Source: Oceanospirillaceae bacterium (lineage in GTDB: Bacteria; Pseudomonadota; Gammaproteobacteria; Pseudomonadales; Balneatricaceae). Taken from it: 64,000 nt of DNA. Below, one piece after another: positions 13,352-62,399 of this stretch. The position numbers and the translations under genes are program-made. Numbering within the stretch: position 1 is the stretch's first letter; every line of letters starts with the position of its first letter. Under the pieces are notes generated by a model. It saw only the letters and a list, made by a program, of their open reading frames with translations. It was not told the DNA's origin and made no database searches. The stretch spans positions 372,001-436,000 of the forward strand of contig JABSQZ010000001.1 in assembly GCA_013215505.1 (NCBI GenBank). Direction: 5' to 3'.

Positions 13352-13386
13352 ACTTCCAACTTCCAACTTCCAACTTCCAACTTCCT
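13352..13386 (+). repeat. Heptamer array ACTTCCA x4 plus one variant
   Basis: Four perfect ACTTCCA units followed by ACTTCCT, between convergent doeB and hutI. The end of the array lies 7 bp from the hutI stop codon. Confidence 0.9.
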
Positions 13387-13393
13387 ACTAGTC

Positions 13394-14617
13394 CTACCTC
13401 CTCCGCCCTAAATAAAACACCTCCCTGGGCTGACACAAATTCACCCCATAACACAACTCACTCGGATGTCCAATATCCCATAACACTAGATCGGCATCGA
13501 AACCCACTGCCAATTGCCCTTTACAATGCCCAAGTCCCAGTGCTTTGGCTGCATCTCGAGTTACCCCCGCCAGACTCTCCTGCGGGGTCAGCCCAAAGAG
13601 CACACAAGCTTGATTCATTGCCAGGCGCAAAGATGCCTGTGGGGATGTTCCCGGGTTTAAATCTGTGGCCACTGCCATAGGCACAGCATGCTCACGCAAT
13701 GCCGCTATCGGTGGCAGCTGCTGCTCTTTGAGGGCGTAAAAAGCACCCGGCAACAGCACCGCAACAGTGCCGGCACTTTTCAATGCTGGCACATCTTGGG
13801 CCTGTAAGTATTCAATATGATCCGCCGAGAGTCCGGCATTTTTGGCCACCAGCAGCGAGCCCTTTAAATCACTCAGCTGCTCTACATGACCTTTAATCGC
13901 TAAGTTGTACGCTTTGGCAACGCTAAATACCCGCTGACACTGCTGCGTGCTAAAACCTATGCCCTCACAGAAAACATCGACTGCATCGGCCAGTTTCAGT
14001 TCGGCGATACTCGGGATAATATGCTCACAGATCTCATCTATGTAGCTATCTTTATCGCTGAACTCCGGTGGCAGTGCATGCGCCGCCAGTAGTGTGGTTT
14101 GCACTGCAACTGCATTTTTGTTACCCAGTTCCCGGGCGATACGCAACAATCTGGTCTCGTGTTGCAGTGATAAACCATAGCCGGATTTTATTTCTACACA
14201 AGTTACCCCCTCCGCCATCAGGCTATTCAAACGCTGCTGCGCCGCAGTTTTTAACTCTTCATCGCTGGCTTCCCGAGTGGCTTTTACGGTACTGGCAATG
14301 CCTCCACCGCGGCGGGATATTTCCTCATAGCTGATCCCTTGCAGGCGCCATTCAAATTCTCTGGCACGATTGCCACCCCAGACTAAATGGGTATGACAAT
14401 CGATCAGACCCGGGGTGATCCAGCCGCCATTGCCATCAATGTGGGTAGTGGCTGTCGGCAGTGTTGCAGCAGGGGGGTAAAAGCTGTGAATTTTTCCACC
14501 TTTAATACCCATACTGGTATTGCTCATAGTGCCGTAATCAGCCATTGGCTGACCATCAGCGGTTTCGATCATACTGGCCAAATTGACATTGCTAATCAGT
14601 AAATCAACTTCTGACAT
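13394..14617 (-). CDS. hutI: Imidazolonepropionase
   Basis: A 407-residue amidohydrolase that opens imidazolonepropionate to formiminoglutamate, the third step of histidine breakdown. Seen: the metal-binding ITPGLIDCHTHLVWGGNRA, CVEIKSGYGLS, QTTLLAAHALPPE, KGHVEQLSD, ADHIEYL and VAVATDLNPGTSP, all in the normal order and at normal length. It is divergent from hutC-hutU-hutH across a 220-bp region that carries the HutC palindromes. Its 3' end abuts the heptamer array shared with the convergent doeB. Confidence 0.95.
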   Translation of the reverse strand: MSEVDLLISNVNLASMIETADGQPMADYGTMSNTSMGIKGGKIHSFYPPAATLPTATTHIDGNGGWITPGLIDCHTHLVWGGNRAREFEWRLQGISYEEISRRGGGIASTVKATREASDEELKTAAQQRLNSLMAEGVTCVEIKSGYGLSLQHETRLLRIARELGNKNAVAVQTTLLAAHALPPEFSDKDSYIDEICEHIIPSIAELKLADAVDVFCEGIGFSTQQCQRVFSVAKAYNLAIKGHVEQLSDLKGSLLVAKNAGLSADHIEYLQAQDVPALKSAGTVAVLLPGAFYALKEQQLPPIAALREHAVPMAVATDLNPGTSPQASLRLAMNQACVLFGLTPQESLAGVTRDAAKALGLGHCKGQLAVGFDADLVLWDIGHPSELCYGVNLCQPREVFYLGRRR

Positions 14618-14767
14618 CTGCTGTTTCTCACTTATATTGCGTTTAACAAAACGTTCAGCTGGTAATTTTTTACCTAAGACAGTTTTAAACTAATGTTTTA
14701 GATAACTTTTCAAACATCTTCAAGGCGCTGTTTAGCCAGCTCCGAGGCGCGAATTAAATTTATTTGT

Positions 14768-14807
14768 AAATTCTAGTTGTATATACAACCATATACAACT
14801 AGAATTT
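14768..14807. promoter_or_regulatory. HutC operator region with nested palindromes
   Basis: GTTGTATATACAAC (14776-14789) is a perfect palindrome with the core TTGTATATACAA known from hut operators. It is nested in a larger perfect inverted repeat with 17-bp arms (14768-14784 and 14791-14807) around 6 bp, giving a second half-site pair. Located between divergent hutI and hutC. Confidence 0.8.
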
Positions 14808-14837
14808 TGCCATTCTTTATTACTGGACATCAGATTC

Positions 14838-15539
14838 ATGAGCACCCCAAGGTTCGTCACCATAAAAAAATTCATCGAAGATAAGATCGACAACGGACAG
14901 TTATCTCCAGGTGATCGGGTCCCTTCAGAGAATGAACTATGCCAGCAGTTCTCGGTTAGCCGGATGACCGCAAGACGCGCACTGCAGGTACTCAACGACG
15001 ACGGGCTACTAATCAGAACGCCGGGCCTTGGCAGTTTTGTCGCCGAACACCGCCCTATAAGCACTATGTTGGAAATTCGCAACATCGCCGACGAAGTACA
15101 CAGCCGTGGCCACAGTTATAAAGCCAAGATTATTAACATGGATGAAGTGGCGGCCAGCGAGCAACAAGCGCAGATGCTGAATGTCGATATAGACTCGCTG
15201 TTATTTCACTCGGTAATAGTGCACCTGGAAGACGATATACCCGTGCAGTGGGAAGACCGGCTGGTCAACCCGGCGATGGCGGCACAGTACTTACAGCAAG
15301 ATTTTAAAACTGTAACCCCCAATGCATACCTGTCAAAGGTCGCTCCTCTGACCGAGGCCAGTCACAAGATTGAAGCCACGTTAGTCAGCGCCGCCATCGC
15401 CGCGGAACTGCAAATTGATAGCCACAGCCCCTGCCTGCAGATCAGTCGTCGCACTTGGTCAGCGGCGGGCGTTGTCAGCATCGCCACATTGATTCACCCG
15501 GGTAACAGATACTGTCTGGGCGGCCACTGGAAATTATAA
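14838..15539 (+). CDS. hutC: Histidine utilisation repressor (GntR family)
   Basis: A 233-residue GntR/HutC-subfamily repressor. The N-terminal winged helix contains SPGDRVPSENELCQQFSVSRMTARRALQVL (about residues 27-57); the C-terminal UTRA ligand domain contains HSVIVHLEDDIPVQWEDRLVNP and ends LIHPGNRYCLGGHWKL, the usual HutC tail. It binds urocanate as inducer in characterised species. It lies 12 bp upstream of hutU and is divergent from hutI. The palindrome in front of it, also present before hutG, implies that one repressor controls both hut blocks and itself. Confidence 0.95.
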   Translation: MSTPRFVTIKKFIEDKIDNGQLSPGDRVPSENELCQQFSVSRMTARRALQVLNDDGLLIRTPGLGSFVAEHRPISTMLEIRNIADEVHSRGHSYKAKIINMDEVAASEQQAQMLNVDIDSLLFHSVIVHLEDDIPVQWEDRLVNPAMAAQYLQQDFKTVTPNAYLSKVAPLTEASHKIEATLVSAAIAAELQIDSHSPCLQISRRTWSAAGVVSIATLIHPGNRYCLGGHWKL

Positions 15540-15551
15540 GGAAAAACTATT

Positions 15552-17219
15552 ATGAATATTAGACTAGATCCCAGCCGCAACATCAAAGCCGCTACCGGCA
15601 GCACTATTACTACCAAAAACTGGCAGAGTGAAGCGGCAATGCGCATGTTAATGAACAACTTAGACCCGGCGGTAGCAGAGCATCCTGCCAACTTAGTGGT
15701 TTACGGCGGTATCGGCCGCGCCGCCCGCGATTGGCCGAGCTACGATAAAATCATCGAAGTATTGCTCGAACTGGAAGATGATCAGACTCTGTTAGTACAA
15801 AGTGGCAAGCCAGTTGGGGTATTTCAAACCCACAGCAATGCCCCCAGGGTCTTAATCGCCAACTCTAATATAGTGCCACACTGGGCCACTTGGGAACACT
15901 TCAACCAGCTGGATAAGCAGGGCTTGATGATGTACGGGCAGATGACTGCCGGCTCCTGGATCTACATCGGCTCACAGGGCATAGTACAAGGGACTTACGA
16001 AACTTTTGGCGCCATGGCCACCCAGCACTTTGACGGCGATGCCAAAGGTAAGTGGATACTCACCGGCGGCCTTGGCGGCATGGGTGGAGCACAGCCTCTG
16101 GCCGCGACGATGGCGGGTTTCTCGATGCTGGCGATTGAGTGTGACGAAACACGCATCGACTTTAGATTGAGCAACCGCTACTTAGACCAAAAAGCCAACT
16201 CTCTGGATGAAGCGCTGGCAATGATAGATGCAGCCCATACTCAGGGCAATGCGATCAGTGTCGGCCTGTTAGGCAACGCCGCGGATCTATTCCCCGAGTT
16301 AGTTGCCCGCAACATCACCCCCGATGTAGTCACTGACCAAACCAGTGCTCACGATCCCCTAAACGGTTATCTGCCACAGGGCTGGAGCATGCAAAAAGCC
16401 GCACAGATGCGCGAGCAAGATGAAGCGGCGGTGGTAATCGCCGCCAAAGAGTCAATGGCGGTTCAGGTCAGGGCGATGTTAACCCTACAGGAGCGTGGTG
16501 CCGCGACTGTTGATTACGGCAACAACATTCGTCAGATGGCGCTGGATATGGGGGTTGAAAACGCTTTTGACTTCCCAGGATTTGTCCCGGCGTATATTCG
16601 CCCGCTATTTTGTGAAGGAATCGGCCCTTTCCGCTGGGTCGCGCTAAGCGGTGACCCTGAAGACATCTACAAAACCGACGCCAAGATCAAAGAGTTAATC
16701 CCCGATAACCCACAGTTGCACAACTGGCTGGACATGGCCCGCGAGCGCATTGATTTTCAGGGCTTGCCGGCACGCATCTGCTGGGTTGGGCTTAAAGACA
16801 GAGCGCGGCTGGCGGTAGCTTTTAATGACATGGTTGCCAGTGGTGAGCTAAAAGCACCTATTGTCATCGGCCGCGATCACTTAGACAGTGGCTCAGTCGC
16901 CTCCCCTAACCGCGAGACCGAGAGCATGAAAGATGGTTCTGACGCAGTCTCTGATTGGCCGCTGCTGAACGCGCTATTGAGCACTGCCGGTGGCGCTACT
17001 TGGGTCAGTTTGCACCACGGCGGCGGCGTCGGCATGGGCTTTAGCCAACACGCCGGTGTGGTAATAGTTGCAGATGGTAGTGATGATGCGCGCGCGCGTT
17101 TAAGCCGTGTACTGTGGAATGACCCCGCCACTGGGGTTATGCGTCACGCCGATGCCGGCTACCAGACAGCCATAGATTGCGCCAGAGAAAATGAACTTAA
17201 TCTACCTATGATCGACTAG
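15552..17219 (+). CDS. hutU: Urocanate hydratase
   Basis: A 555-residue enzyme that converts urocanate to imidazolonepropionate using tightly bound NAD as an electrophile. Full-length family features are present: [43 protein letters not shown], the NAD-binding [22 protein letters not shown], the catalytic-cysteine region [19 protein letters not shown], and [18 protein letters not shown]. It stands between hutC and hutH in a rightward operon. Confidence 0.97.
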
Positions 17220-17277
17220 CAATCAGCGCTAGTCATTGGGTAACCCAGAATCATCAGATATTGAATACGGAAACATC

Positions 17278-18807
17278 ATGAAGACATTAGTTATCACACC
17301 CGGTCAGCTCACTTTAGCGGAACTCAAAGAGCTAGATCTTGGACATATGCACATCGAGCTTGACCCCAGCAGCCATCATGAAATCGACTTAGCGGCGCAG
17401 ACAGTAGCAAAAGTACTGGCAGAAGACCGGGTAGTCTACGGTATTAACACCGGCTTTGGCTTACTGGCCAATACCCGCATTAAAGAAGATGAACTGGAAG
17501 TACTACAGCGCAGTATTGTATTGTCACACGCCGCCGGTATCGGTAGATACATGGATGACGCGACCGTGCGTCTGTTGATGGTGTTAAAAGTTAACTCACT
17601 GGCCCGTGGCTTTTCCGGGATACGTTTAAAAGTCATCCAGGCGCTGATCACTTTATTGAACAAGCAAATTTACCCTTGCATTCCGATTAAAGGATCGGTT
17701 GGCGCCAGCGGCGATTTAGCACCCCTGGCACATATGAGCTGCACTTTACTCGGCGAGGGCCACGCCCGCTACCAGGGTGAAATCATCTCAGCCAAGACGG
17801 CCTTAGCACTGGTAGATTTAGAACCACTGGTGCTGGCACCTAAAGAGGGGCTGGCACTGCTTAACGGAACTCAAGCTTCCACCGCACTGGCATTACAGGG
17901 CCTGTTTAAAGCGGAAAACTTATTGGCCGCCGGTGCTGTTATCGGCGCCCTGTCGGTGGACGCCGCCCAGGGATCTCGCAAGCCCTTTGATCAGCGCATT
18001 CACGCTGTGCGCGGTCACCAGAGTCAGATTGATTTAGCCTTTGCCTACCGCGAGCTGCTAAAACACTCACAAATTGAAGACAGCCACGCCGACTGTGAAA
18101 AAGTACAAGACCCTTATTCACTGCGCTGTCAGCCTCAGGTAATGGGTGCTTGTCTGACGCAGATTCGCAACTCCGCCGATATCATTTTAACCGAGAGCAA
18201 CGCTGTCTCAGACAATCCCTTAGTCTTCCAGGAACAGGACGATATCATCTCCGGTGGTAACTTCCACGCTGAACCTATCGCTATGGCAGCCGATAACTTA
18301 GCCTTGGCACTGGCAGAAATCGGTGCCCTGTCCGAGCGTCGAATGGCTCTGTTAATCGACTCTAAACTCAGTGGTCTGCCACCTTTTCTGGTCGATAACG
18401 GCGGGGTTAACTCCGGCTTTATGATGGCCCAGGTCACCTCGGCGGCACTGGCCAGTGAAAATAAGAGTTTAGCCCATCCGGCATCAGTAGATAGCCTACC
18501 GACATCTGCCAACCAGGAAGATCACGTCTCGATGGCGACTTTTGCCGCCAGACGACTGGGTGATATGGCGGAAAACTGCGCAGGCATTTTAGCGGTTGAA
18601 TACCTGGCTGCCTGCCAGGGATTGGATTTCCGCGCTCCGCTTAAAAGTTCGACAGTGTTAGAACAAGCGAAAACCGAGCTGCGGGCGATAGTGCCTTTCT
18701 ACGACAAAGACCGCTTTTTCTCACCGGATATTGAAGCTGCAGCGCGCCTGGTCGAGAGCGATAAGCTACTGGAGTTTGTGCCGGCTGTGATTCGCATTAG
18801 TGTGTAA
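17278..18807 (+). CDS. hutH: Histidine ammonia-lyase
   Basis: A 509-residue enzyme that removes ammonia from histidine to give urocanate. The self-formed MIO cofactor triad Ala-Ser-Gly is at residues 143-145 ([15 protein letters not shown]), and the catalytic tyrosine region [10 protein letters not shown] and the [17 protein letters not shown] loop are intact. An in-frame start at 17236 exists, but ATG 17278 has GGAAA upstream and gives the family's normal N-terminus and length. It closes the hutC-U-H operon and is followed by two hairpins. Confidence 0.96.
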
Positions 18808-18826
18808 AACATCGAGCTTTAATGAG

Positions 18827-19555: not shown

Positions 19556-19576
19556 GCGCACAGCCTTGAGCGCATA

Positions 19577-19652
19577 AAAGGTCGAGTAGCGAGTAGTATT
19601 TTGATTGTTACTTACGACTTACGACTCGCTACTTACGACTTAAAATTACGAC
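19577..19652. repeat. Heptamer/hairpin element between convergent genes
   Basis: Contains GAGTAGCGAGTAG, then TTTTGATTGTT, then ACTTACG x2 (19610-19623), CTCGCTAC, another ACTTACG (19631-19637) and degenerate units. GTAGCGAGT and ACTCGCTAC pair as stem arms. The TTTTGATTGTTACTTAC core is shared with the elements at 60438 and 62400. The minus-strand gene's TAA at 19653 abuts it. Confidence 0.75.
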
Positions 19653-19976
19653 TTAAAAATTACGATTGACCTTTAACGCTTGCTGAAAATAATAATCCAG
19701 CTCAAGATTCAGCATTGTGCGCAGAGACAGCACTTTCATCCTTTTAGTGTTTCCATGTAACAACCCGTAGTCATCATCCATCAGAAAACCCTTGAGAAAG
19801 CCGATATCCACACCTTCGGACATGGTTCTGATATGGCACAAAGCCGAGCCTTTAAATGCATAAGTAGTTATTTTTTCTTTCTTTAATTCTTCAATATCAG
19901 CTTGTGCCAAAAGCTTTGCTCGCACCACCATAAACAAATCTTTATGCTGCGAGCCCATATCTTTATCAAATTGCAT
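19653..19976 (-). CDS. DUF1801-like protein
   Basis: A 107-residue soluble protein: HKDLFMVVRAKLLA, then YAFKGSALCHIRTMSEGVDIGFLKGFLMDDDYGLL and KRMKVLSLRTM. This is the arrangement of DUF1801 (YdhG-like) proteins, whose function is unsettled. A CGGAGGTAAT box directly before ATG 19976 decides the start over the upstream ATG at 20006. Its stop codon touches the heptamer element. Confidence 0.65.
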   Translation of the reverse strand: MQFDKDMGSQHKDLFMVVRAKLLAQADIEELKKEKITTYAFKGSALCHIRTMSEGVDIGFLKGFLMDDDYGLLHGNTKRMKVLSLRTMLNLELDYYFQQALKVNRNF

Positions 19977-20373
19977 ATTACCTCCGGGCTGTTCATTAAT
20001 ATGCATTAATGTTACCGCGACTCTACTGACAAACTCTGTCAGTAGTCATGAAGAAAAAATAGGCCAATCACTACTTGAAGTTGGAATTTTCAAACGGGGC
20101 CTGAACTCGGCTGAAAAACATTTACACTTTTGCAGTCGGAGATCCAAAGAGCAGCGATTTTGCAAAGTGTTAGATTTTTAATCGCTTTATTTTATTATTT
20201 CAACTAATACACAGGCATACGGGCCTTGTTCTGCGTCTACTTTTTTAGCCTAACACTCGCGGTTAGCGCAGCAAAACTTCTCTCACACAGAGCTGCATCT
20301 TAAGCTGTCACGGGCTAAATTAGTCTGAGATGTTATTTGGCTATTGATCATTGATCAAATTCATCCTAATATG
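19977..20373. other. Gene-free stretch
   Basis: About 400 bp without a supported reading frame. It ends with TTGATCATTGATCAA-like dyads (about 20345-20358) and the 22-bp inverted repeat at 20374. Confidence 0.4.
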
Positions 20374-26455: not shown

Positions 26456-26572
26456 AAATACATATCCCTGGTGAAGTGCAATTAATACCTGCACAAATTA
26501 AAAATCCAATCTGAAAAACATACTGCCTTTTAAATGTACGTACAAACAAAGCCATTAGATTCACCACTCATG

Positions 26573-26677
26573 ACTTCCAACTTCCAACTTCCAACTTCCA
26601 ACTTCCAACTTCCAACTTCCAACTTCCAACTTCCAACTTCCAACTTACGACTTACGACTTACGACTTCCGACTTTCA
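26573..26677 (+). repeat. Composite heptamer array: ACTTCCA x10, ACTTACG x3, ACTTCCG x1, ACTTTCA
   Basis: Ten perfect ACTTCCA units (26573-26642) run without a gap into three ACTTACG (26643-26663), one ACTTCCG (26664-26670) and ACTTTCA. One array thus holds three of the unit types seen singly elsewhere. The end of the array encodes the last residues and the stop codon of the DUF2937-like gene. Confidence 0.95.
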
Positions 26678-27153
26678 TACGCCCTTCTCTTGAAAGGCCA
26701 GGTTATTAATAGATTTAATATCAAGCCAAATATAAGACCGAACGCTAAGCCGCTTGAAGTAAAAGGGATACCCATTTTAAAATTAGTGATTGAGCCTTTA
26801 AGTGCTGTATATCTCGTTGGATTTAACATAAACAGTACTTTTTCAAATATATTGCCCTTCGCAAAAATATCGACCCCGACTTTAAGATCCGCGAACAGTG
26901 CCAGAGTAGCCATTTTTTGCCTGGCATCCGTTCTCACACTTGCCTCAGTGTTTTGCAAGTGCCGATCAATCATTGACAGTAAATCCACAAACTCGTGTTT
27001 CTTTGCGGTCCTTTCATACCCATCCACCTGGAACTTTGTAGCTTCATACAGACCCGATAAATACTGGTGATAATGATCAACCAACAGTGGACCTTGCAAA
27101 GCGAGAATGAATGTTAAACCAAATATCAATTTATCGAAAATTCTTACAATCAC
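26659..27153 (-). CDS. DUF2937-like membrane protein whose end lies in the heptamer array
   Basis: A 164-residue protein with an N-terminal helix (about 8-25) and a C-terminal helix (about 130-152); between them is a soluble coiled region (QYLSGLYEATKFQVDGYERT, then VDLLSMIDRHLQNTEAS). The QGPLLVDHYHQYLSGL start is like DUF2937 proteins of unknown function. The last residues ESRKS and the TAA stop are read from heptamer units (GTCGGAA, GTCGTAA), so array changes could alter its C-terminus. Confidence 0.6.
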   Translation of the reverse strand: MIVRIFDKLIFGLTFILALQGPLLVDHYHQYLSGLYEATKFQVDGYERTAKKHEFVDLLSMIDRHLQNTEASVRTDARQKMATLALFADLKVGVDIFAKGNIFEKVLFMLNPTRYTALKGSITNFKMGIPFTSSGLAFGLIFGLILNLLITWPFKRRAYESRKS

Positions 27154-27940: not shown

Positions 27941-28130
27941 GCTTAACGCCAAGAGCCAGTATGTGCAGAGACTGGCCGGGGTTGTTTACGGTTTTTGTTT
28001 GACTAAAGCATCTGTCCTGGAAAGCTCTGGTTACGTTGATTTGTTATAAATTTACACTCAAGACAATCCTATCCAGAGCGCATATAGGCGACACCAATGC
28101 GCGCTAAAACACAGAAAAATCCCGTCCAAT

Positions 28131-28157
28131 ATATTTTATATTTTATATTTTATATTT
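28131..28157. repeat. AT-rich heptamer tract ATATTTT x3.9
   Basis: Three perfect ATATTTT units and a fourth cut short. Same 7-bp period as the ACT-type arrays but unrelated in sequence; 148 bp from the next array. Confidence 0.8.
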
Positions 28158-28304
28158 CTTCAGATTAATCAATATTAACATTAAATTTCAAGTAGTAAGG
28201 TCTGTTTTCAATGTAGTTCAGGAGAAATACGCAACCATCCCACTTCACTATCAGCCCTTAATAAACCCTGACAACCCCCTTCAGCGGCAGTCTTTAAACT
28301 AGCG

Positions 28305-28325
28305 ACTGACGACTGACGACTGACG
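28305..28325 (+). repeat. Heptamer array ACTGACG x3
   Basis: Three perfect units, flanked by TAGCG on the left and ACTCACTACTTTTTACTTATAAC on the right, words also found beside other arrays. This array is not at a gene end: the genes on both sides point away from it. Confidence 0.85.
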
Positions 28326-28464
28326 ACTCACTACTTTTTACTTATAACTTATCACTTTCTTTTAAACACTTCGCCCCAGACCGAAGCATTCACTTTTTGC
28401 AGCCAATACACTGCACCTCTGTCGCAACCTCTTCTGCTTTAAACAAATTACACAGGTAATTTCT

Positions 28465-29139
28465 ATGTCCAGTTCTATGATCATTCTAAGTTTTATCCCC
28501 ACTTGGCTAATCTTCACCGCCGCTTGCATCTCTCCAGGTCCCAACACTTTTCTGGTGATGTCTGTGGCATTATCCCAAAGTAGAAAATCTGCCCTTTGGG
28601 TTACATTAGGTATAGCGCTGGGTGGTTTCGTCTGGGCGTTTATCTCCCTGGTCGGGGTCAGCCAGCTACTTAATAGCTACCCAGGCTTACTGCAAGTTAT
28701 TGCCATCCTCGGCGGTAGTTACCTCTGTTACATAGGTTTTAAAACGCTGCGCTCTGTTTTAGCAGCAAAGTCGAGTGCAACCACTGACACACTGAGTGCA
28801 GTAACAGTTCGGGATTTAAAATCACTGCCTGAAATTATGCGCATAAAAAATATCGCTAAAGGCATCATCACTACTTTATCTAACCCTAAAGTCGCCATGC
28901 TGTGGATGTCTCTGTCTTCAGTGGTGCCGGTTAGTACCGCACAAATGGGCTGGCTAGCATTCTATGCACTAGTGATAGGCGCAATCGTCTTCTGTGTCTA
29001 TGGCACTATCGGCCTGATATTTTCAGAGACCAGAGCCCAGCAAAACTACTTAAAACACTCGAACCTAATTAACAGCCTGTTCGCCGCCATATTCATCGCC
29101 CTGGGCCTATTCATCTTCATTAACCACGGCCTAACCTAA
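28465..29139 (+). CDS. LysE/RhtB family amino-acid exporter
   Basis: A 224-residue membrane protein with about six helices. The family start is FIPTWLIFTAACISPGPNTFLVMSVALSQSRK (the S-P-G-P motif), followed by ALWVTLGIALGGFVWAFISLVGVS and ILGGSYLCYIGFKTLR; IAKGIITTLSNPKVAMLWMSL is the second conserved block (NPK). It would export amino acids or homoserine-lactone-like compounds across the inner membrane. Single gene with an AGG box before ATG. A second LysE-type exporter lies at 43303. Confidence 0.88.
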   Translation: MSSSMIILSFIPTWLIFTAACISPGPNTFLVMSVALSQSRKSALWVTLGIALGGFVWAFISLVGVSQLLNSYPGLLQVIAILGGSYLCYIGFKTLRSVLAAKSSATTDTLSAVTVRDLKSLPEIMRIKNIAKGIITTLSNPKVAMLWMSLSSVVPVSTAQMGWLAFYALVIGAIVFCVYGTIGLIFSETRAQQNYLKHSNLINSLFAAIFIALGLFIFINHGLT

Positions 29140-29175: not shown

Positions 29176-29231
29176 ACTTCCGACTTCCGGCTTCCGACTT
29201 CCGACTTCCGACTTCCGACTTCCGACTTTCA
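29176..29231 (+). repeat. Heptamer array ACTTCCG x6 with one GCTTCCG, ending ACTTTCA
   Basis: Seven units of the same length (one variant, third position in the array) then ACTTTCATA, the same right flank as the composite array at 26573. It lies 37 bp after the LysE stop and 54 bp before the RNase Z-like start. Confidence 0.92.
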
Positions 29232-29284: not shown

Positions 29285-30256
29285 ATGGAACTAATCTTTC
29301 TCGGTACCTCCGCCGGCTCCCCGACTAAACGCCGCAATGTTAGCGCTTGTGCACTGCGCAAGTTCGGCGCTAAGCGCTGGTATTTAATCGATTGTGGCGA
29401 GGGCACCCAACAGCAGATACTGCACACTAAGCTGTCACTGGTGCACTTAGAGGCCATTTTTATTACCCACGTCCACGGCGATCACTGCTACGGGCTGCCG
29501 GGTTTATTGGCCAGTGCCATGATGTCGGGCCGCACTAAGGCATTGAGCATAGTGGCACCGCAGGCTATACAGCGCTATTTACAGGCGATTTTCGAAACAA
29601 CTGAATTGCAGCTGAGTTTTGAGATTAACTTCCAGTGTGTAGAAAGCTTAGACAGGCTTGTTGAATTCAAACATTTTAAGGTGCAGAAAATTGCCCTTTC
29701 ACATCGGGTTGATAGCGTTGCCTACCACTTTTCTGAAACAGATATTCAATTGCGACTGGATGTAGAAAAATTAGCTAAGGATAAGATCACCACCGGCCCG
29801 CACTGGAATCTGCTGCAAAAAGGCCAGGATGTTGAAGTGGCCGGGCAACTGTTAAAAAGTACTGACTACACCTTTGTCGCACATGCACCCCGAAAAGTAA
29901 TTATTAGCGGTGACAACGACAACCCGCAGTTACTAGCGCCATTTTGTGAAGGCTTAGATTTGTTAATACACGAAGCCACCTACAGCCAGCAGATGTCCGA
30001 CAAGATAGGCCCTGCACCACAACACTGCAGTGCAAAAGCCCTGGCGAAATTTGCCCAACAGCAACAGTTAACTAAACTGATCATGACCCACTTTAGCCCG
30101 CGCTACCAGTACCCACCCAGCAAAGCGCTGCTGATCACTGAGTTGGAAGATGAGGCAAGAAGCTACTACAGCGGCCAACTTCACTTAGCCAATGACTTCG
30201 ACCACTTCCGACTCACCACCGGCAACGAGCTACAACTTATGACTACTCGCTACTAG
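29285..30256 (+). CDS. Ribonuclease Z-like metallo-beta-lactamase-fold nuclease
   Basis: A 323-residue protein. All zinc motifs are present: FITHVHGDHCYGLPGLLAS (HxHxDH), ALSHRVDSVAYHF, VIISGDNDNPQLL, DLLIHEATYSQQM and LIMTHFSPRYQ. The short RNase Z form has this length and processes tRNA 3' ends in organisms with encoded or unencoded CCA; in gammaproteobacteria the role is often accessory (RNase BN/ElaC). The last codons TTRY and TAG run into a heptamer element (CTACTCGCTACTAGCTAC). Convergent with the cupin gene. Confidence 0.88.
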   Translation: MELIFLGTSAGSPTKRRNVSACALRKFGAKRWYLIDCGEGTQQQILHTKLSLVHLEAIFITHVHGDHCYGLPGLLASAMMSGRTKALSIVAPQAIQRYLQAIFETTELQLSFEINFQCVESLDRLVEFKHFKVQKIALSHRVDSVAYHFSETDIQLRLDVEKLAKDKITTGPHWNLLQKGQDVEVAGQLLKSTDYTFVAHAPRKVIISGDNDNPQLLAPFCEGLDLLIHEATYSQQMSDKIGPAPQHCSAKALAKFAQQQQLTKLIMTHFSPRYQYPPSKALLITELEDEARSYYSGQLHLANDFDHFRLTTGNELQLMTTRY

Positions 30257-30258
30257 CT

Positions 30259-30279
30259 ACTTCCGACTTCCGACTTCCG
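30259..30279 (+). repeat. Heptamer array ACTTCCG x3 between convergent stop codons
   Basis: Three perfect units directly after the RNase Z-like stop (30254-30256). The cupin gene's TAG (30281-30283) abuts the other end. Confidence 0.9.
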
Positions 30280-30280
30280 A

Positions 30281-30937
30281 CTAGTCAGTTAACGGCAAAT
30301 GCCCTGTCTTCACCAATATAATGGTCTCCTCTTCAACAAAAGGATGATGCTGACTCATGTGCGGGCTACGAATCCAGGTGTGCTTGGGGTATTGGCCGTA
30401 TTCATCACAAAAGGTGCCACTGAGAACAAATATCTCCTCTCCGCCAAAATGCCTGTGTGGCAAAAACTTTTCTCCCGCTGGCCATTTAACTAAAGCAACA
30501 TTTTCACCGCCAAAATGGTGCAGCGGCATCACTTGCAAGCCACCTTGCCCCTGCAGCCACGGCTGGCTTAAGGTATCTATGCGCACTTCCTCAAGATCAT
30601 CTGCGGCAAACTGGTTTAGTTTCACCAGAATTTCACAGCCCTCTTTACTGAAAGGCACGTGTGAACTGCCCGGCGGGTTACGCAAATAAGTACCGGCCGG
30701 ATAATCACCGTTTTCATCACTAAACACGCCACGCAGTACAAATATCTCTTCACCTGCAGGGTGTGTATGACCTTTAAAGCTAGCATTTTTACTGTATTTA
30801 ACCACACTAGTGGTATGTCCCTGCTCTACCTCTTCACGCTCTAAAGGCTTTCTGAAGACAGAGGCAGAAGGGCTGTCCAACCAAGGTTGGCTGTCTGTCT
30901 GTATCACAAGTTTTTCACTAAAATTCATGTTGTACAT
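30281..30937 (-). CDS. Two-domain cupin protein (ChrR-like)
   Basis: A 218-residue protein made of two copies of a ChrR-type cupin. Copy 1: GHTHPAGEEIFVLRGVFSDENGDYPAGTYLRNPPGSSH. Copy 2: PHRHFGGEEIFVLSGTFCDEYGQYPKHTWIRSPHMSQHHP. Each has the HxH-E metal site and the second His. The N-terminal zinc-binding anti-sigma domain of real ChrR is missing and no cognate sigma is adjacent, so a metal-dependent enzyme or oxidative-stress sensor are both possible. AGAGG precedes ATG 30937. Confidence 0.8.
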   Translation of the reverse strand: MYNMNFSEKLVIQTDSQPWLDSPSASVFRKPLEREEVEQGHTTSVVKYSKNASFKGHTHPAGEEIFVLRGVFSDENGDYPAGTYLRNPPGSSHVPFSKEGCEILVKLNQFAADDLEEVRIDTLSQPWLQGQGGLQVMPLHHFGGENVALVKWPAGEKFLPHRHFGGEEIFVLSGTFCDEYGQYPKHTWIRSPHMSQHHPFVEEETIILVKTGHLPLTD

Positions 30938-40525: not shown

Positions 40526-40889
40526 AGTAACTCCTGTGGCTAGGGAAGATATGCAGGGATCCCGGGCTATGGCAGTTGATTATTAAAAGGATACTGCCGC
40601 TGAATAGCCAGATTATATGACATTACTAAATCAGATAGGATTTTAAATCGATTTAATCTCAATTTATTGTAAATAGGAAGACTACAAAACTACAAGTTGG
40701 AAGTTGGAAGTTGGAAGTTGGAAGTTGGAAGTTTTGGGGTACAGTTTGGCTGACAGTAGTTCCACTGAGGAATTATTGAGTTGCAAAATATACAGACAAT
40801 ATACATCTAGAGTCGATGGCAATATCCAGAACTGAACTACACTGTAACCATTAATATTCAGTTTAGAAATGTAAATTAACGGGGTGGTT
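40526..40889. other. Divergent promoter region with a heptamer array
   Basis: No gene. AT-rich 40600-40690, then the GTTGGAA array, then the leader of the Amt fusion gene. Confidence 0.5.
40696..40730 (-). repeat. Heptamer array GTTGGAA x5
   Basis: Five perfect units (the complement of the TTCCAAC/ACTTCCA type). Located in a divergent intergenic region, away from any stop codon. Confidence 0.92.
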
Positions 40890-44038: not shown

Positions 44039-44911
44039 ATGAAAAATAGCAAACTCCCACCAATGGGACCCTTAATCAATTTTTGCAAGGCGGCTGAACA
44101 CCAAAGTTTTACCAAAGCCGCGCAAGAATTAAACTTAACGCATGGCGCGATCAGCCGTTCAGTGCAGCAACTGGAACAGTATTTTGGTTTGGCGTTATTC
44201 CAACGGCGCAACAGACGCATATACCTCACAGATAAAGGACGTTTCTTTGCCCAGAGAGTTGACTCACTACTGGCGGAGCTGGCGCTGACTTGCGAGCAAA
44301 TGGCAGTACAAAACAACGGCTTGCATCTGGCCGTTTCCTGTGAGCCCTCGCTGGCGATGCGCTGGCTGATGCCAAGGCTCGGCCACTTTAATGAAGAATT
44401 TACCGACATAGATGTGCACTTATCAACGGCGGGAGGGCCAGTTGACCTGGCGGCGCAAAATTTGCACTTGGCTATTCGCCGGTCTGATTTTCAATCCCCG
44501 GCGGATTACTGGGTAACTCCCTTAGGGCGAGAGCGAATTGGTTTGGTTTGTCATCCCAGTTACTGGGCAGACAAGCGCCATCAGTCTATGACATTACTGC
44601 ATACCCGGACACGACCTAGTGCCTGGTCAGACTGGCTGAGTCTGTCTGCTCAAAGCATTGAGTCTGCAAAGGAGCAGTATTTCGATCACTTCTATTTTAG
44701 TTTACAGGCAGCCGTTGCAGGCCTTGGTTTAGCAATTGGCCCACAACACTTAGTCGCCGACGATATTAGCAATGGGCATTTGCTGGCCCCCTTTGGCTTT
44801 GTTGAAACCACTACAGAATATATAGCCTTGTCGCTGAAAAACCCGCAGCGCGATACTGCTTTGAACGACTTTGTTAGTTGGTTGAAAATAGAAATGGGCG
44901 AAAAATCATAG
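44039..44911 (+). CDS. LysR family regulator (GcvA-like)
   Basis: A 290-residue LysR protein. DNA-binding domain: FCKAAEHQSFTKAAQELNLTHGAISRSVQQLEQYFGLALFQRRNRR (about 12-60). Effector domain begins LHLAVSCEPSLAMRWLMPRLGHFN; AVAGLGLAIGPQHLVADDI is the usual C-terminal pocket. It probably activates or represses the divergent LysE exporter gene in response to its substrate. The G of its TAG stop is the first base of a ten-unit heptamer array. Confidence 0.88.
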   Translation: MKNSKLPPMGPLINFCKAAEHQSFTKAAQELNLTHGAISRSVQQLEQYFGLALFQRRNRRIYLTDKGRFFAQRVDSLLAELALTCEQMAVQNNGLHLAVSCEPSLAMRWLMPRLGHFNEEFTDIDVHLSTAGGPVDLAAQNLHLAIRRSDFQSPADYWVTPLGRERIGLVCHPSYWADKRHQSMTLLHTRTRPSAWSDWLSLSAQSIESAKEQYFDHFYFSLQAAVAGLGLAIGPQHLVADDISNGHLLAPFGFVETTTEYIALSLKNPQRDTALNDFVSWLKIEMGEKS

Positions 44912-44980
44912 TCGGAAGTCGGAAGTCGGAAGTCGGAAGTCGGAAGTCGGAAGTCGGAAGTCGGAAGTCGGAAGTCGGAA
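44911..44980 (-). repeat. Heptamer array GTCGGAA x10
   Basis: Ten perfect units with no mismatch (complement TTCCGAC/ACTTCCG). The array begins with the last base of the lysR stop codon. Confidence 0.95.
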
Positions 44981-45196
44981 GTACATTAAGCCACATCAGA
45001 GGCATATACTAATAAGTATAATTATCGGATGGGAGTTTTTTTTGTATTATAGTCAGACATTGTACCTGAGTCAGCAATTTAGGAAGTATCAACTAATTAG
45101 ATTGGCTTGATAAAGAGTTCAGCGGTTTTATTGACCGGAGTCATCAAGCTATCACTCCTGTTTTTATTAATCCTGAATGGCTAAAGAAGATTAACC

Positions 45197-51502: not shown

Positions 51503-51511
51503 CAATAAATT

Positions 51512-57908: not shown

Positions 57909-57943
57909 AAAAAAGGGCTTACTCGTTAAAGTATGCCCTTTAA
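57909..57943 (-). terminator. Rho-independent terminator of the cold-shock gene
   Basis: On the minus strand, AAGGGCATACT pairs with AGTAAGCCCTT (one T-T mismatch) around a 6-nt loop, followed by six Ts. Confidence 0.85.
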
Positions 57944-58005
57944 ATCACTACTAGCTTTCACTAATAGTCTTTGTTTACCCGGAATATTGCCCGGGATATA
58001 GCGAT

Positions 58006-58215
58006 TTAGATAGCTACAATGTTTTCAGCTTGCGGGCCTTTCTGACCTTGACCTAAAACAAACTCAACACGCTGACCTTCAGCCAGAGTCTTAAATCCGT
58101 CGCCAGCAATCGCTGAGAAGTGTGCAAAAACGTCTGGACCAGACTCTTGTTCTATGAAACCGAAACCTTTAGATTCGTTGAACCATTTGACTGTACCAGT
58201 AGTTGTATTAGACAT
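58006..58215 (-). CDS. CspA-family cold-shock protein
   Basis: A 69-residue OB-fold protein with RNP1 (KGFGFIE) and RNP2 (DVFAHFSAI) and [16 protein letters not shown] at its start. It acts as an RNA chaperone; expression often depends on a long 5' leader, and here the next upstream gene ends about 350 bp away. AGGAT precedes ATG. It ends at a strong terminator. Confidence 0.95.
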
Positions 58216-58516
58216 AATATTATCCTGTATTGTAAAATAAATAAGTGCGCCTATAAGGCATTTTTAAGATGTAACAGACTGAAATTTGGTAACACTTGGA
58301 AACTACAGGACGAGAAATCACGTAATGGAGGCTTCAAACAAGAGACTTTCTTTCTAGCTGCGGGCACTATATAGAAGACCTTAACTGCGGTCAAACAATT
58401 TGTCTGTTTTTTGATCAGTTAAGTTTAGAAATATTTGAAATACGTTGACCAGCCAAAAGCTGGTGAATAAGACAAAGCTTAATAGATTTTACTATTAGCC
58501 CCAACTATTGAGCAGC
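58216..58516. other. Probable long leader of the cold-shock gene
   Basis: No gene. Csp mRNAs often have a long structured 5' leader; this would be the candidate region, but I could not identify a specific cold-box. Confidence 0.4.
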
Positions 58517-58545
58517 GAATGTGATCAATCCGTGAGATCACATTC
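58517..58545. terminator. Hairpin after the PEP-mutase-like gene
   Basis: GAATGTGATC and GATCACATTC form a perfect 10-bp stem around 9 nt, 21 bp beyond the stop of the leftward gene; no T tract. Confidence 0.5.
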
Positions 58546-58565
58546 TCTATCCTATTTCTAAATAG

Positions 58566-59330
58566 TTAAAATACCGGCGCAAATGAATTCGCTGTTTGTA
58601 TCTGATTAAGCCGTGTTTCAAAGTCAGCTTGCAATTTATCAAATAAGAAATTACCCATGCTGATACGCTTTACCCCCAATGATGCAAGGGAATCAAAATC
58701 GGCTAAATCAGGCATACACATCACATTTAACGCAAGTGTGCTGTTACTGATAACGGCTTGAATATCTTGGATGTTGGTAATGCAAGGTACAAACAAACCA
58801 TCTGCTCCAGCGGTTGTATATAAACTTGCCCGCGTTTTCGTTTCGGCCAAGGCGTCCTCTTGACCCAGTAAAAATGTATCGGTTCTGACATTCATAAATA
58901 CATCGATCTTATCCTTTAGAAGTTGCCCCTTGATGGCCGATAGATACCCGGCAAAGCTGTTTGCATCAATCAATTTACGTGTGTCAGTGACTCTACTGTC
59001 TTCAATGTTGATACCGACGACCCCTACTTCTGCAAGTGTCTTAATATACGCCGCTGTTATAAGCGGGTCTTGACTATAACCCGCTTCAATATCAACCGTG
59101 AGGGGTAACTTGCTGCAGCTCAGGATGCGTTTAACTATAAACAGCAATTCTTCGAATGCTATTTCTTCACCATCTTCGTAACCTAGCATGCTTGCAATGG
59201 CCGCACTTGAAGTACCGATAGCAATAAAGCCTAGTTTTTGCGCGGTTAGCGCGCTTGCAACATCCCATACATTACAAATCATCAGGGGTGTTGCCTGCTG
59301 GTGAAGTAGATTAAATTGTTGCGTTTTCAT
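58566..59330 (-). CDS. Isocitrate lyase/PEP mutase family enzyme
   Basis: A 254-residue TIM-barrel enzyme. MICNVWDVASALTAQKLGFIAIGTSSAAIASMLGYEDG is the family N-terminus; TVDIEAGYSQDP and GVVGINIEDSRVTD carry metal-ligand Asp/Glu, and NVRTDTFLLG (the R of the active site) follows. The family includes methylisocitrate lyase, PEP mutase and oxaloacetate/2-oxo-acid lyases; this short form is often unassigned. It is divergent from a LysR gene, with a palindromic LysR site between them. Confidence 0.87.
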   Translation of the reverse strand: MKTQQFNLLHQQATPLMICNVWDVASALTAQKLGFIAIGTSSAAIASMLGYEDGEEIAFEELLFIVKRILSCSKLPLTVDIEAGYSQDPLITAAYIKTLAEVGVVGINIEDSRVTDTRKLIDANSFAGYLSAIKGQLLKDKIDVFMNVRTDTFLLGQEDALAETKTRASLYTTAGADGLFVPCITNIQDIQAVISNSTLALNVMCMPDLADFDSLASLGVKRISMGNFLFDKLQADFETRLNQIQTANSFAPVF

Positions 59331-59437
59331 ATTGAAGGTCTCATTTTATGTTGTTCAGATATAAGCAGCTGTGCTGCGTAACTGCGAATAATTATGCTGA
59401 CAGTGCAGGGTGAAAACCAACGATAAAACTCGATTTG

Positions 59438-59460
59438 TATTATAAGCTGTGCTTATAATA
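59438..59460. promoter_or_regulatory. LysR-type operator between divergent genes
   Basis: Perfect 10-bp arms TATTATAAGC and GCTTATAATA around TGT, of the T-N11-A LysR type. It lies 35 bp before lysR and 108 bp before the PEP-mutase-like gene. Confidence 0.7.
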
Positions 59461-59494
59461 GTTTCCCCGAAAATGATTAGTAATTTTGTATCTC

Positions 59495-60409
59495 ATGGAA
59501 AAAGCTTTAAGAAATTTAAATCTATTGCGCAGCTTCGAGTGCGCCGCGCGGCATCATAGTTATAGTAAAGCTGCCTCTGAGCTCTACATATCCCAAGCCG
59601 CTGTCAGCCAGCAAATGCGCCAATTGGAAGCGGCACTTGGCAGTCAGCTATTTATCAGAAAAGGCAAACAAATGCTGCTGACGCAAAAAGGTCAGGCCCT
59701 GTTTGAAGCCTCACAGCAAGCATTCGGTATTTTACAAAAGTGTGTTAATGAAATAAAAGAAGAAGGTATCCCCGGCAAGCTAACTATTACTTCAACACAG
59801 GCTTTTACCGCATTATGGTTGATGCCAAAACTGCATAAGTTCTCTGAGAAGTACCCAGAAATAGAAATACGAGTACTGTCATCATCTGCCTTTGACGACC
59901 TTAAACAACAACATATTGATCTTGCTATCCGCTTTGGTACTTCTGTTACAGACAACACCGACCCGGGATTTTCCTGTGAGTATTTTGGTGAAGATCCTGT
60001 ATACCCGGTGTGCTCCGCACAGCTGGCAAAAACACTCAACTTTGATGTGCCCTCCGATCTACTGCAAACCTGGTTAGTGAGCCTGGAAAATCCGGGAGCC
60101 TATGACTGGCCATCCTGGTTTGAACATGCAGGTATAACAGCTTATCGAGAACACCGCCGCTGGACCCAAGTTCACAGCACTGATATGGCGCTAAATGCGG
60201 TCGTAAGCGGCCACGGTTTTACATTAGCCGCCCGCTATTTGTATGCTCAACAAATCAATTCAGGCCAGCTGGTGATGCCGGTAGTTATTGCCCACCCCAA
60301 CGTGGTAAAACGCTATCTGGTATTTGACCCTAACTCTGCAAAAATAGCCCGTCTCAGGGTATTTATGCAGTGGCTGAAAACGGAGATTGATACGAGTAGC
60401 GAGTCGTAA
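59495..60409 (+). CDS. LysR family regulator (GcvA-like)
   Basis: A 304-residue LysR protein. DNA-binding domain: LLRSFECAARHHSYSKAASELYISQAAVSQQMRQLEAALGSQLFIRKG. The effector domain holds LTITSTQAFTALWLMPKLHKFSEKYPEIEI and ALNAVVSGHGFTLAARYL. It probably regulates the divergent PEP-mutase-like gene from the LysR box. The last residues SSES and the TAA are encoded inside the heptamer element (TCG TAA). Confidence 0.88.
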   Translation: MEKALRNLNLLRSFECAARHHSYSKAASELYISQAAVSQQMRQLEAALGSQLFIRKGKQMLLTQKGQALFEASQQAFGILQKCVNEIKEEGIPGKLTITSTQAFTALWLMPKLHKFSEKYPEIEIRVLSSSAFDDLKQQHIDLAIRFGTSVTDNTDPGFSCEYFGEDPVYPVCSAQLAKTLNFDVPSDLLQTWLVSLENPGAYDWPSWFEHAGITAYREHRRWTQVHSTDMALNAVVSGHGFTLAARYLYAQQINSGQLVMPVVIAHPNVVKRYLVFDPNSAKIARLRVFMQWLKTEIDTSSES

Positions 60410-60528
60410 GTCGTAAGTCGTAAGTCGTAAGTCGTAAGTCTTTTGATTGTTACTTACGACTTACGACTGCATTCCTGTTACTTACGACTTACGACTCGAT
60501 ACTTGCTACTTGTTCACCTCGATATTTG
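60394..60528. repeat. Heptamer/hairpin element: GTCGTAA x5, loop, ACTTACG x2, spacer, ACTTACG x2
   Basis: GAGTAGCGA, GTCGTAA x5 (60403-60437), then GTCTTTTGATTGTT, ACTTACG x2 (60452-60465), a spacer, ACTTACG x2 (60480-60493) and CGATACTTGCTACTTG. The segment 60423-60439 pairs perfectly with 60452-60468 (17 bp, 12-nt loop). It lies between convergent lysR and the SDR-like gene. Confidence 0.9.
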
Positions 60529-61260
60529 CTACTTTTTTATTTCGCTATTATAGATCACCGGAAACTGCCCCCGCCACTGCTGCCATTTGGTTTCATCCTT
60601 GAGTAGATGCAAGATTGCGTTGGCGACATTCTGACGACTAGTCTGACCGGGGTTGAAGATAGCGCTGCGGATCGGCGACGGGTGTAATTGGTACTGACTT
60701 ACCGCCGGTGAATCGATCAGAGTATCTGGACGCAGCACTAGCCATTCAATTTGCGCATTTATTTGGCCAACTTCAGCACGCAGAAAATCTGCCGCCCGCT
60801 CGTTATCCAAATGGGGTGGCAACAATAAGCGCAGTAGACCAATCACTGCCATTTGCGCCAGCGAAACGGTCTCTTTCAGATCGCGGTTTCCAACCCCGCT
60901 ACTGCTCATGAGGATAAATTTAACCGGATATTCTGCTGAATTTTGTTCAATCGCAGCGCAGACACGCCGGGTAGCTTCAGTGACTAAGTTTCGCGGTTGA
61001 CCATAGATACCTTTAAAGTTCATGTTATGGCCAAGGCAAGAGACGACCGCACTGCAGCTTTCAACATAGCCACTGAGTTCAATATCACTGAGCTGCAAAA
61101 TACTGCCTTGAATCAATTCTAAGTTGCTGTGTTGACTAAGAGTTTTAGGAAAACTAGATATATTCCGGACGATAGCCACTACTTGCTGCCCGCCCTCCAG
61201 TAATTGTTGCACTAATAATTTACCCGTGGCACCACTGGCGCCCAGCACTAATGTTTTCAT
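60529..61260 (-). CDS. NAD(P)-binding (atypical SDR) family protein
   Basis: A 243-residue protein of the NmrA/atypical SDR group: cofactor motif LVLGASGATGKLLVQQLLEGG (GxxGxxG), VIVRN, AVVSCLGHNMNFKGIYG, LMSSSGVGN and VLRPDTLIDSPAVSQY. These are NAD(P)-dependent reductases or redox-sensing proteins; YwnB-type proteins are similar. ATG 61260 was chosen (preceded by AAGGCG). Divergent from a LysR gene at 61415. Its TAG stop abuts the heptamer element. Confidence 0.82.
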   Translation of the reverse strand: MKTLVLGASGATGKLLVQQLLEGGQQVVAIVRNISSFPKTLSQHSNLELIQGSILQLSDIELSGYVESCSAVVSCLGHNMNFKGIYGQPRNLVTEATRRVCAAIEQNSAEYPVKFILMSSSGVGNRDLKETVSLAQMAVIGLLRLLLPPHLDNERAADFLRAEVGQINAQIEWLVLRPDTLIDSPAVSQYQLHPSPIRSAIFNPGQTSRQNVANAILHLLKDETKWQQWRGQFPVIYNSEIKK

Positions 61261-61414
61261 AGACACGCCTTTTTAATCGCACACTCAAACTATTTGATCT
61301 AAATACGGGTAAAGCGCAGTGCTATTACCGTTAATAATTTCCAGATGGCAATTTTATTCCATTCAATATAGGATGATAATCCCCAATAATTGCATTAAAG
61401 GTATTCATTTTTGT

Positions 61415-62305
61415 ATGGACTGGCGCGCTGTAAAGTTCGACTGGAACCGTGCCCGGGCATTTCTGGTCACTGTCGAAGAAGGATCGCTATCTGCCGCTGC
61501 CCGCGCACTGGGGATGAGCCAACCGACGCTGGGACGACAAGTATCGGCGCTGGAAGCGGAGTTAGGGGTAGTGTTGTTCGAAAGGGTCGGCACTGGCTTA
61601 GAGCTCACCCCTAGCGGTCTGGAGTTACTTGAGCAAGTACGGGCTATGGGAGCAGCCGCGAATAGATTTTCACTGGCCGCCAGTGGCCAGTCGCAGCAAC
61701 TGCAAGGTATTGTCTGTATCAGTGCCAGCGAAGTACACGCCGCTTTTTGGCTGCCGCCTATCATCGCAAAACTGCGAAGGTTACAACCAAAGATAACCAT
61801 TGAGCTGGTTGCGACCAGCAAGATCAGTGACCTACAGCGCCGCGAGGCCGATATCGCGATTCGCAATTTTCGTCCCACCCAGCCTGAATTGATTACAAAA
61901 AAAATCAAAGATTCCACTGCCAGACTCTATGCAACCCCACAATATCTGCAAGCAATCGGGCCTGTTAACACTGCGATGGATTTACAAAGGGCCGAATTTA
62001 TCAGCATCGACAGCACCGGTATGTTACTCAAAGGTTTAAATGATCGAGGACTCAATATAAACAAAGACAACTTTACGATCTTGTGCGAAAGCTACTTAGT
62101 ACACTGGCAGTTAGTCAAACAGGGGTTAGGTATCGGCATAATGCCCGAGGATATTGGCGATGCAGAGCCTGCAGTAGTAAGGGTTTTAGGTAATCAAGTG
62201 CCTCTCACTTTCCCCATATGGCTAACCACCCACCGCGAACTGCATACCAGCCGACGGGTACGGTTAGGGTTCGATTTGTTGGCAGAAGAATTAAAAAATC
62301 AGTAG
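61415..62305 (+). CDS. LysR family regulator
   Basis: A 296-residue LysR protein. DNA-binding domain: FDWNRARAFLVTVEEGSLSAAARALGMSQPTLGRQVSALEAELGVVLFERVGTG. The effector domain contains GIVCISASEVHAAFWLPPIIAKLRRLQPKITIELV and LGIGIMPEDIGDAEPAV. An upstream in-frame ATG (61319) would add unconserved residues. It is divergent from the NAD(P)-binding gene, a typical pair. Its TAG (62303-62305) is in the AGTAGCGAGTCGTAAG left flank of a heptamer element. Confidence 0.88.
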   Translation: MDWRAVKFDWNRARAFLVTVEEGSLSAAARALGMSQPTLGRQVSALEAELGVVLFERVGTGLELTPSGLELLEQVRAMGAAANRFSLAASGQSQQLQGIVCISASEVHAAFWLPPIIAKLRRLQPKITIELVATSKISDLQRREADIAIRNFRPTQPELITKKIKDSTARLYATPQYLQAIGPVNTAMDLQRAEFISIDSTGMLLKGLNDRGLNINKDNFTILCESYLVHWQLVKQGLGIGIMPEDIGDAEPAVVRVLGNQVPLTFPIWLTTHRELHTSRRVRLGFDLLAEELKNQ

Positions 62306-62322
62306 CGAGTCGTAAGTATCGA

Positions 62323-62399
62323 GTAGTCTGTAGTCTGTAGTCTGTAGTCTGTAGTCTGTAGTCTGTAGTCTGTAGTCTGTAGTCTGTAGTCTGTAGTCT
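62323..62399. repeat. Heptamer array GTAGTCT x11
   Basis: Eleven perfect units (complement AGACTAC/ACTACAG), flanked by AGTAGCGAGTCGTAAGTATCGA on the left and TTTTGATTGTTACTTACAACTCGATACTC on the right, the same flank words as at 60394. It lies between convergent lysR and ROK genes. Confidence 0.95.

Follow-up and report, generated by a model that had tools for sequence, protein, structure and literature searches.

How do tandem repeats of one period come to be scattered over a genome with a common core, and what keeps that core in place? The question is raised by a 64,000-nucleotide stretch of an Oceanospirillaceae genome (GenBank assembly GCA_013215505.1, contig JABSQZ010000001.1, positions 372,001 to 436,000; hereafter the window, whose numbering is used throughout). 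It carries a series of tandem arrays of 7-bp units, or heptads, most of which contain ACT (AGT on the other strand). The arrays belong to a real, genome-wide, dispersed and strand-specific family that is biased to gene ends. On the coding strand the unit reads N-G-N-R-A-G-T. The original prediction, made from the letters of the window, had described the arrays by their ACT core and had missed the strand and the placing at gene ends.

Extent and unit of the heptad family

Every array named in the original prediction was recovered in the window by Tandem Repeats Finder (TRF). The genome-wide excess with a shared consensus that it had proposed as a check was found as well. In the whole genome the pattern (ACTNNNN)x4+ACT gave 606+443 = 1,049 overlapping matches, vs 41+22 = 63 for the reversed control. 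With 3.72 matches per array in the sample, the genome is estimated to hold about 280 arrays of at least five units. The sample covered 464 kb, made up of the window and 20 further 20-kb stretches; 11 stretches were picked because they held ACT-match arrays and nine were taken blind. Within these 464 kb, ACT/AGT at period 7 ranked first among all triplets at periods 4-14 with 44 runs, followed by its own period-14 harmonic (43 runs). ACT was present in 39/44 period-7 TRF arrays, vs 23% of random 7-mers. The five arrays without ACT had the units TATATTT (four copies at 28130-28157 of the window), TGAGGTG, CTTACGC, CTAGCCT and GAAACAG. Density was patchy, with 11 runs of at least five units in the 64-kb window vs 2 in the nine blind stretches (180 kb). 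Spread was patchy too, a five-unit ACT match occurring in 34/116 genomes of the family. A search of the window against Rfam returned 0 matches.

A phase- and strand-free motif search over the 44 arrays of this genome (own arrays) returned Y-G-K-R-A-G-T, with frequencies of 0.88 for G2, 0.97 for A5, 0.92 for G6 and 0.88 for T7. Its score was 373 vs a maximum of 207 in 60 shuffles, with 6 starts per shuffle vs 30 for the data. The commonest sense units were TGGAAGT, CGGAAGT and CGTAAGT. An independent search on 27 arrays of G028, a genome from another genus of the family, gave S-G-T-R-A-K-T (score 207 vs a shuffled maximum of 130). The form G-N-R-A-N-T-N fitted 36/44 own arrays and 17/27 arrays in G028, where 10.5% and 7.7% of random 7-mers fit, respectively. 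Two results speak against the motif being universal. Of 32 arrays in three further genera, 14 fitted (g2 5/17, g4 1/1, g6 8/14), and these 32 were mostly sampled through ACT matches and are therefore biased. In the more distant congeners G110, G113, G114 and G115 only 1/4 arrays fitted, although those genomes hold 27 to 171 five-unit ACT matches. In both groups the strand of arrays that did not fit was assigned by purine content.

Secondary heptads TGAGGTG, AGGTGTG and GCGTGAG adjoin ACT arrays at L031:9758, L161:13972 and L176:6448. Aligned by hand, they take the register N-G-N-R-A-G-G, i.e. the motif with T replaced by G.

Gene ends, strand and turnover of units

Over half of the arrays begin at or just past the stop codon of a same-strand gene. 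Genes were called with a program that replaced a poorer first one (coding fraction 0.79 vs 0.64). It missed the DUF2937 gene at 26659-27153, so the array at 26566 is counted as not at a stop in the placement, orientation, stop/start and terminator counts. Among own ACT runs of at least four units with both neighbours called, the AGT strand starts within 30 nt after a same-strand stop in 24/42, while random placement in the same gaps gave a mean of 9.7 and a maximum of 19 in 20,000 trials. The congeners G111 and G112 had 13/14 runs so placed (random mean 5.4, maximum 11). Five stretches of G110, G113, G114 and G115 (L165-L169) belong to the congener group in the unit, gene-neighbour, start/stop, fit, hairpin, motif and unit-change counts, and are excluded from it in the placement and pause-triad counts. 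AGT runs of at least three units follow 25/381 stops and ACT runs 7/381; before starts the numbers are 2/381 and 0/381. In g2 and g6 together there were 27 intergenic arrays with the upstream neighbour called; 12 of them follow a same-strand stop by at most 30 nt, and 1 is that close to an opposite-strand start. Ten gene ends in the window carry such arrays, the exceptions being those at 28298, 29176 and 40694. In L040 an array with the sense of the neighbouring tRNA-Val gene lies 10 nt past it, which shows that arrays do not need a stop codon.

The setting of many arrays is convergent: 20/44 own runs lie between convergent genes, and the inverted arrays of the window (about 19590-19640, 60395-60510 and 62301-62433) consist of one AGT array per gene around a TTTTGATTGTT spacer. 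This setting would suit Rho-loading sites on antisense RNA, with the C-rich, G-poor ACT strand (36% C, 8% G) ending antisense transcription into the gene. Rho, however, needs neither a 7-nt register nor a fixed ACT, and cyanobacteria, which are not known to encode Rho, also carry such arrays; we regard this explanation as improbable. Dispersal, intergenic position and some inverted pairs would also be expected of repetitive extragenic palindromic (REP)-like elements moved by a REP-associated tyrosine transposase (RAYT, a Y1 transposase), and the own genome has two Y1_Tnp matches. The array-rich congeners G111, G112 and G115 have none, however, and many genomes without ACT arrays have such matches. 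An association with RAYT was rejected on this distribution; these transposases are not needed, and an origin of this kind is barely credible.

Two other candidates were rejected. Arrays do not mark strong intrinsic terminators: a terminator-like hairpin was found within 70 nt after the array in 5/36 array genes vs 58/509 others (within 72 nt after the stop). No hairpin was found between stop and array, a nearly empty result since the tested arrays begin within 30 nt of the stop. Pairing of the unit with the 3' end of 16S rRNA was judged by eye; some G028 units fit, and ACTTCCA and ACTTACG do not.

For eight window sites (4555, 13352, 19610, 29176, 30243, 40694, 44910 and 62301) both flanks could be placed in G111, G112 or both with comparable spacing, the flank pieces being 72-89% identical. 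At seven of the eight, at least two ACT stand in register in the congeners; the site at 40694 is degenerate in G112. Reverse mapping from the congeners gave no empty site among the comparable ones, several being not comparable. The units mostly differ between orthologous sites. At the 3' end of rnz the window has ACTcgct-agct-tccg-tccg-tccg, G112 ACTtcca-tcct-tcct-tccg and G111 ACTagct-tcct-tacg-tacg. The 62301 site has GTAGTCT x11.0 in the window vs AGTTGGA units in G112, and other units were found at 19610 in G111 and G112 and at 29176 in G111. Units at 44910 are mixed in G112 and partly the same as in the window, and G112 has the window's unit at 13352. Sites are shared with the two congeners; the N positions turn over and A-G-T, more weakly G and R, is kept in register.

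Changes between neighbouring units were counted in 36 distinct own arrays, of which 32 had ACT and 30 of these had any unit change. ACT took 37/211 changes, vs 90.4 (s.d. 12) under a phase-rotation null that was as low in 0/20,000 trials. In the congeners ACT took 11/92, vs 39.4 (s.d. 7.5). At 28298-28356 ACT keeps the 7-bp register although nearly every unit differs. The claim that ACT is kept between units agrees with these counts, and the avoidance of ACT argues for a constraint or mechanism that preserves ACT and, to a lesser degree, G and R. The original prediction had derived the arrays from rapid local slippage plus slow drift of a common ancestor. Local 7-bp slippage is supported by homogeneous blocks, such as the 11.0 copies at 62323 and five repeats of TCTTCCG in L031, and old common sites by the heptads at orthologous positions in two congeners. 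An even slow drift does not agree with the few changes on ACT (90 expected, and 39 in the congeners). Off-consensus units such as TCTTCCG and CTTACGC are sometimes amplified, which shows that slippage is real and that the constraint is not absolute.

Mutation without function is a serious possibility, though short of probable. Slippage by 7 bp of seeds in tolerated DNA past gene ends, perhaps aided by R-loops on untranslated purine-rich RNA, would yield homogeneous blocks and amplified off-consensus units. It would also suit the patchy spread in the family, the array past tRNA-Val and the behaviour of single motifs described below. An earlier survey, cited in PMC4679880, found heptads to be the commonest class of long repeats in most of its genomes. 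Slippage by itself predicts neither the avoidance of ACT nor the shared G, A and T phases at unrelated loci, and does not predict the one-sided strand and distance.

Possible pause sites or binding proteins, and known heptad repeats

The explanation favoured here, tentatively, joins slippage to a sense-strand process past the gene end that keeps the register, with a ladder of RNA-polymerase pause sites as the candidate. Slippage by 7 bp would make and homogenise the units, and the process acting just past the gene end would hold them in register. Transcription is the candidate process. Two papers give the elemental pause consensus as G-10 Y-1 G+1 (PMC12288461, PMC9291695), and each typical unit of this genus would supply all three positions. 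Only a polymerase moving in the sense direction would then meet a pause site every 7 bp, and the array would act as a ladder that might slow it ahead of termination or of meeting a convergent polymerase. In the own arrays the pause triad occurs at 10.3 per 100 nt in sense, 0.3 in antisense and 4.4 with unit phases permuted (0/2,000 permutations reach 10.3). The placing by gene end and strand, the phase-free motif, the sparing of ACT and the old sites with mostly new units were counted as support along with the triad.

Several results weigh against the pause ladder. The triad is borderline in the congeners (8.8 vs 5.2 permuted, fraction 0.027), not significant in G028 (6.4 vs 4.2, fraction 0.088) and not enriched in other genera (5.2 vs 6.7, fraction 0.86), and the arrays share ancestry, which makes the shuffle fractions in general too favourable. 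By our reading the triad is incomplete in the published Xanthomonas and Nostoc units. The ladder does not explain A5 and T7, and G028 lacks the 3' bias (9/17). After the stops of array-free genes, single GNRAGT copies show no enrichment (26 sense, 20 antisense, 39 before starts), and a single-copy 3' signal was rejected on this ground. On these counts the pause ladder is possible for this genus and does not cover the whole class.

Pure slippage and a phased binding protein are close rivals of the pause ladder. An RNA- or single-stranded-DNA-binding protein that reads G-N-R-A-N-T every 7 nt would account for near-invariant letters among freer positions in a fixed register, for the sense-strand 3' placing and for the same letters in G028. 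The protein is hypothetical, arrays also lie beside tRNA genes, and no common class was seen among the scanned genes that neighbour the window arrays; we consider such a protein unlikely.

Repeats of this kind are already known. The original prediction had no example from gammaproteobacteria, and this part must be corrected, since Xanthomonas has GGGNATC arrays (PMC4692102) and Beggiatoaceae have TAACTGA heptads (PMC4679880). No description of the ACT/AGT family itself was found in the open-licence literature, among the matches listed. Rehm et al. 2015 (PMC4692102) report arrays of GGGNATC in Xanthomonas and of GGGGA(C/T)T in Nostoc and propose quadruplexes. On the sense strand these arrays lie no more than 50 bp from stops, and on the other strand they also occur up to 50 bp upstream of starts; there are inverted pairs, many of them in Xanthomonas, where length and sequence also turn over at shared sites. 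The own arrays share with them, as described there, the 7-bp tandem period, dispersal, mostly intergenic position, sense-strand gene-end placing and inverted pairs, and with those of Xanthomonas the turnover at shared sites. Set in register as N-G-G-G-A-N-T and G-G-G-G-A-Y-T, the Xanthomonas and Nostoc units match the own units in where G, R, A and T stand, in a comparison that uses the published consensus and in which G-N-R-A-N-T is our own generalisation. Compared with the Xanthomonas and Nostoc arrays, AGT and not a G-tract is the fixed part here, the units are more variable and most lack quadruplex potential; the 8 own arrays oriented like the start-side arrays lie 56-714 nt from starts, not within 50 bp. 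(GGGAATC)x4 is absent from the own genome and was found in 1/369 genomes of the class (3 overlapping matches in G482).

G-quadruplex elements like those proposed for Xanthomonas and Nostoc would agree with the position, strand and inverted pairs reported in PMC4692102. They would also agree with a minority GGG unit, GGGAAGT, which makes up 6/349 own units (tallied from 35/44 own array rows) and 6/85 congener units; the G112 array L164:10468 holds four. The commonest units have at most GG and many have single Gs (CGTAAGT, AGCGAGT), which puts the three-tetrad form out of reach for most arrays, and the explanation is very doubtful for this family. Weaker two-tetrad quadruplexes of TGGAAGT and CGGAAGT could still form. 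Most own units lack a G-tract yet share the register, which makes quadruplexes an unlikely shared cause of gene-end heptads; the comparison with known members weakens what has been the favoured explanation for the kind.

According to MacGregor 2015 (PMC4679880), TAACTGA heptads occur in Beggiatoaceae, cyanobacteria and Bacteroidetes, have one fixed unit whose near variants are rarely repeated, and lie mostly just upstream of start codons in the genome studied. They resemble the own arrays in being intergenic, of 7-bp period and present in gammaproteobacteria, and the rotated unit contains ACT. Unlike them, the own units differ and do not precede starts. Checked by hand, TAACTGA does not fit GNRANTN on either strand. 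The short tandemly repeated repetitive (STRR) sequences of cyanobacteria are likewise intergenic heptads.

A still more tentative reading is that the arrays of this genus, the genus of G028, Xanthomonas and Nostoc form one cross-phylum class of gene-end heptads with the sense unit G-N-R-A-N-T-N, which would be read in a 7-nt register by some factor or by the transcription machinery; quadruplexes would be a side effect of the G-rich members. Heptad arrays have so far been treated separately, as quadruplex elements, translational elements or slippage products. A large family with a sense-strand bias to gene 3' ends and the register of Xanthomonas and Nostoc, mostly without quadruplex capacity, sets G-richness apart from position, strand and register and puts the cause of heptad arrays within reach of a test. 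Old sites with young units also offer a natural test case for concerted evolution in which a core is protected.

Individual arrays and side observations

Coordinates of the arrays in the window, with strand, neighbouring genes and recovery by TRF
Feature	Position	Strand	Location	TRF
Short array, 3 ACT in register	4555-4577	-	At stop of gene 4577-5341 (-)	TRF
AGT-heptad array, TGGAAGT type	13352-13389	-	4 nt 3' of stop of amidohydrolase gene 13394-14617 (-)	TRF
AGT-heptad array, CGTAAGT/AGCGAGT	19610-19665	-	3' of gene 19653-20006 (-)	TRF
16 ACT in register, four unit types	26566-26673	-	3' of DUF2937 gene 26659-27153 (-)	26573-26674: ACTTCCA x10, ACTTACG x3, ACTTCCG
9 ACT in register, most tetramers different	28298-28356	-	No adjoining same-strand stop	28303-28328, inside the run
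ACTTCCG array	29176-29228	-	Between LysE-type gene 28465-29139 (+) and rnz; not at same-strand stop	TRF
Array between convergent genes	30243-30282	-	Between rnz 29285-30256 (+) and cupin gene 30281-30937 (-); overlaps both stops	30259-30282
AAGTTGG array	40694-40733	+	Between divergent genes	TRF
AGTCGGA x10.4	44910-44982	+	Begins within TAG stop (TAGT) of LysR-type gene 44063-44911 (+)	TRF
AGT array	60395-60439	+	Overlaps stop of LysR-type gene 59495-60409 (+)	60402-60440
Spacer TTTTGATTGTT	60441-60451	.	Separates two arms of inverted pair	
Facing AGT array	60452-60510	-	3' of gene 60529-61260 (-)	60452/60480
AGT arrays incl. 11.0 copies GTAGTCT	62301-62397	+	3' of LysR-type gene 61373-62305 (+)	62323-62399 (11.0 copies)
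Facing AGT array	62410-62433	-	3' of ROK-family gene 62438-63622 (-)	

Some stop codons fall inside array units: the TAA of the DUF2937 gene lies within a CGTAAGT unit, and the LysR-type gene that ends at 60409 has its stop inside a unit as well. The letters of TTTTGATTGTT also precede the arrays at 19610 and 62410, and TTTTGACTGTT is found near L036:10590. The G112 site orthologous to the 4555 array carries ACTTCCTACT. Among the relatives kept from genome_contigs for the RNase Z protein encoded by rnz, the best are only 48-54% identical (Zobellella and others; the nearest genomes were possibly left out).

In G028, 25/27 heptad arrays from 120 kb lie in L182 and L183 (G028:C1:180001-220000), in long stretches that separate called genes; the choice of L182, L183 and L187 was based on their ACT matches. 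ACTCGTC arrays at L188:7588-7663 and 9107-9189 (G029) lie inside called genes, unlike the intergenic rule, and by another gene call only the second does. At least six G111 and G112 contigs start within ACTTCCA-type arrays (G112:C261; G111:C97, C200, C267, C284 and C305), and the arrays probably break these assemblies.

L040:7311-7879 holds a tandem duplicate of tRNA-Val(tac)/tRNA-Asp(gtc) that is near-identical over about 240 bp. It is bounded by arrays with different tetramers and the same ACT register. Possibly the arrays mark the edge of what was duplicated, and they may have brought the duplication about; another reading is that the tRNA block underwent gene conversion.

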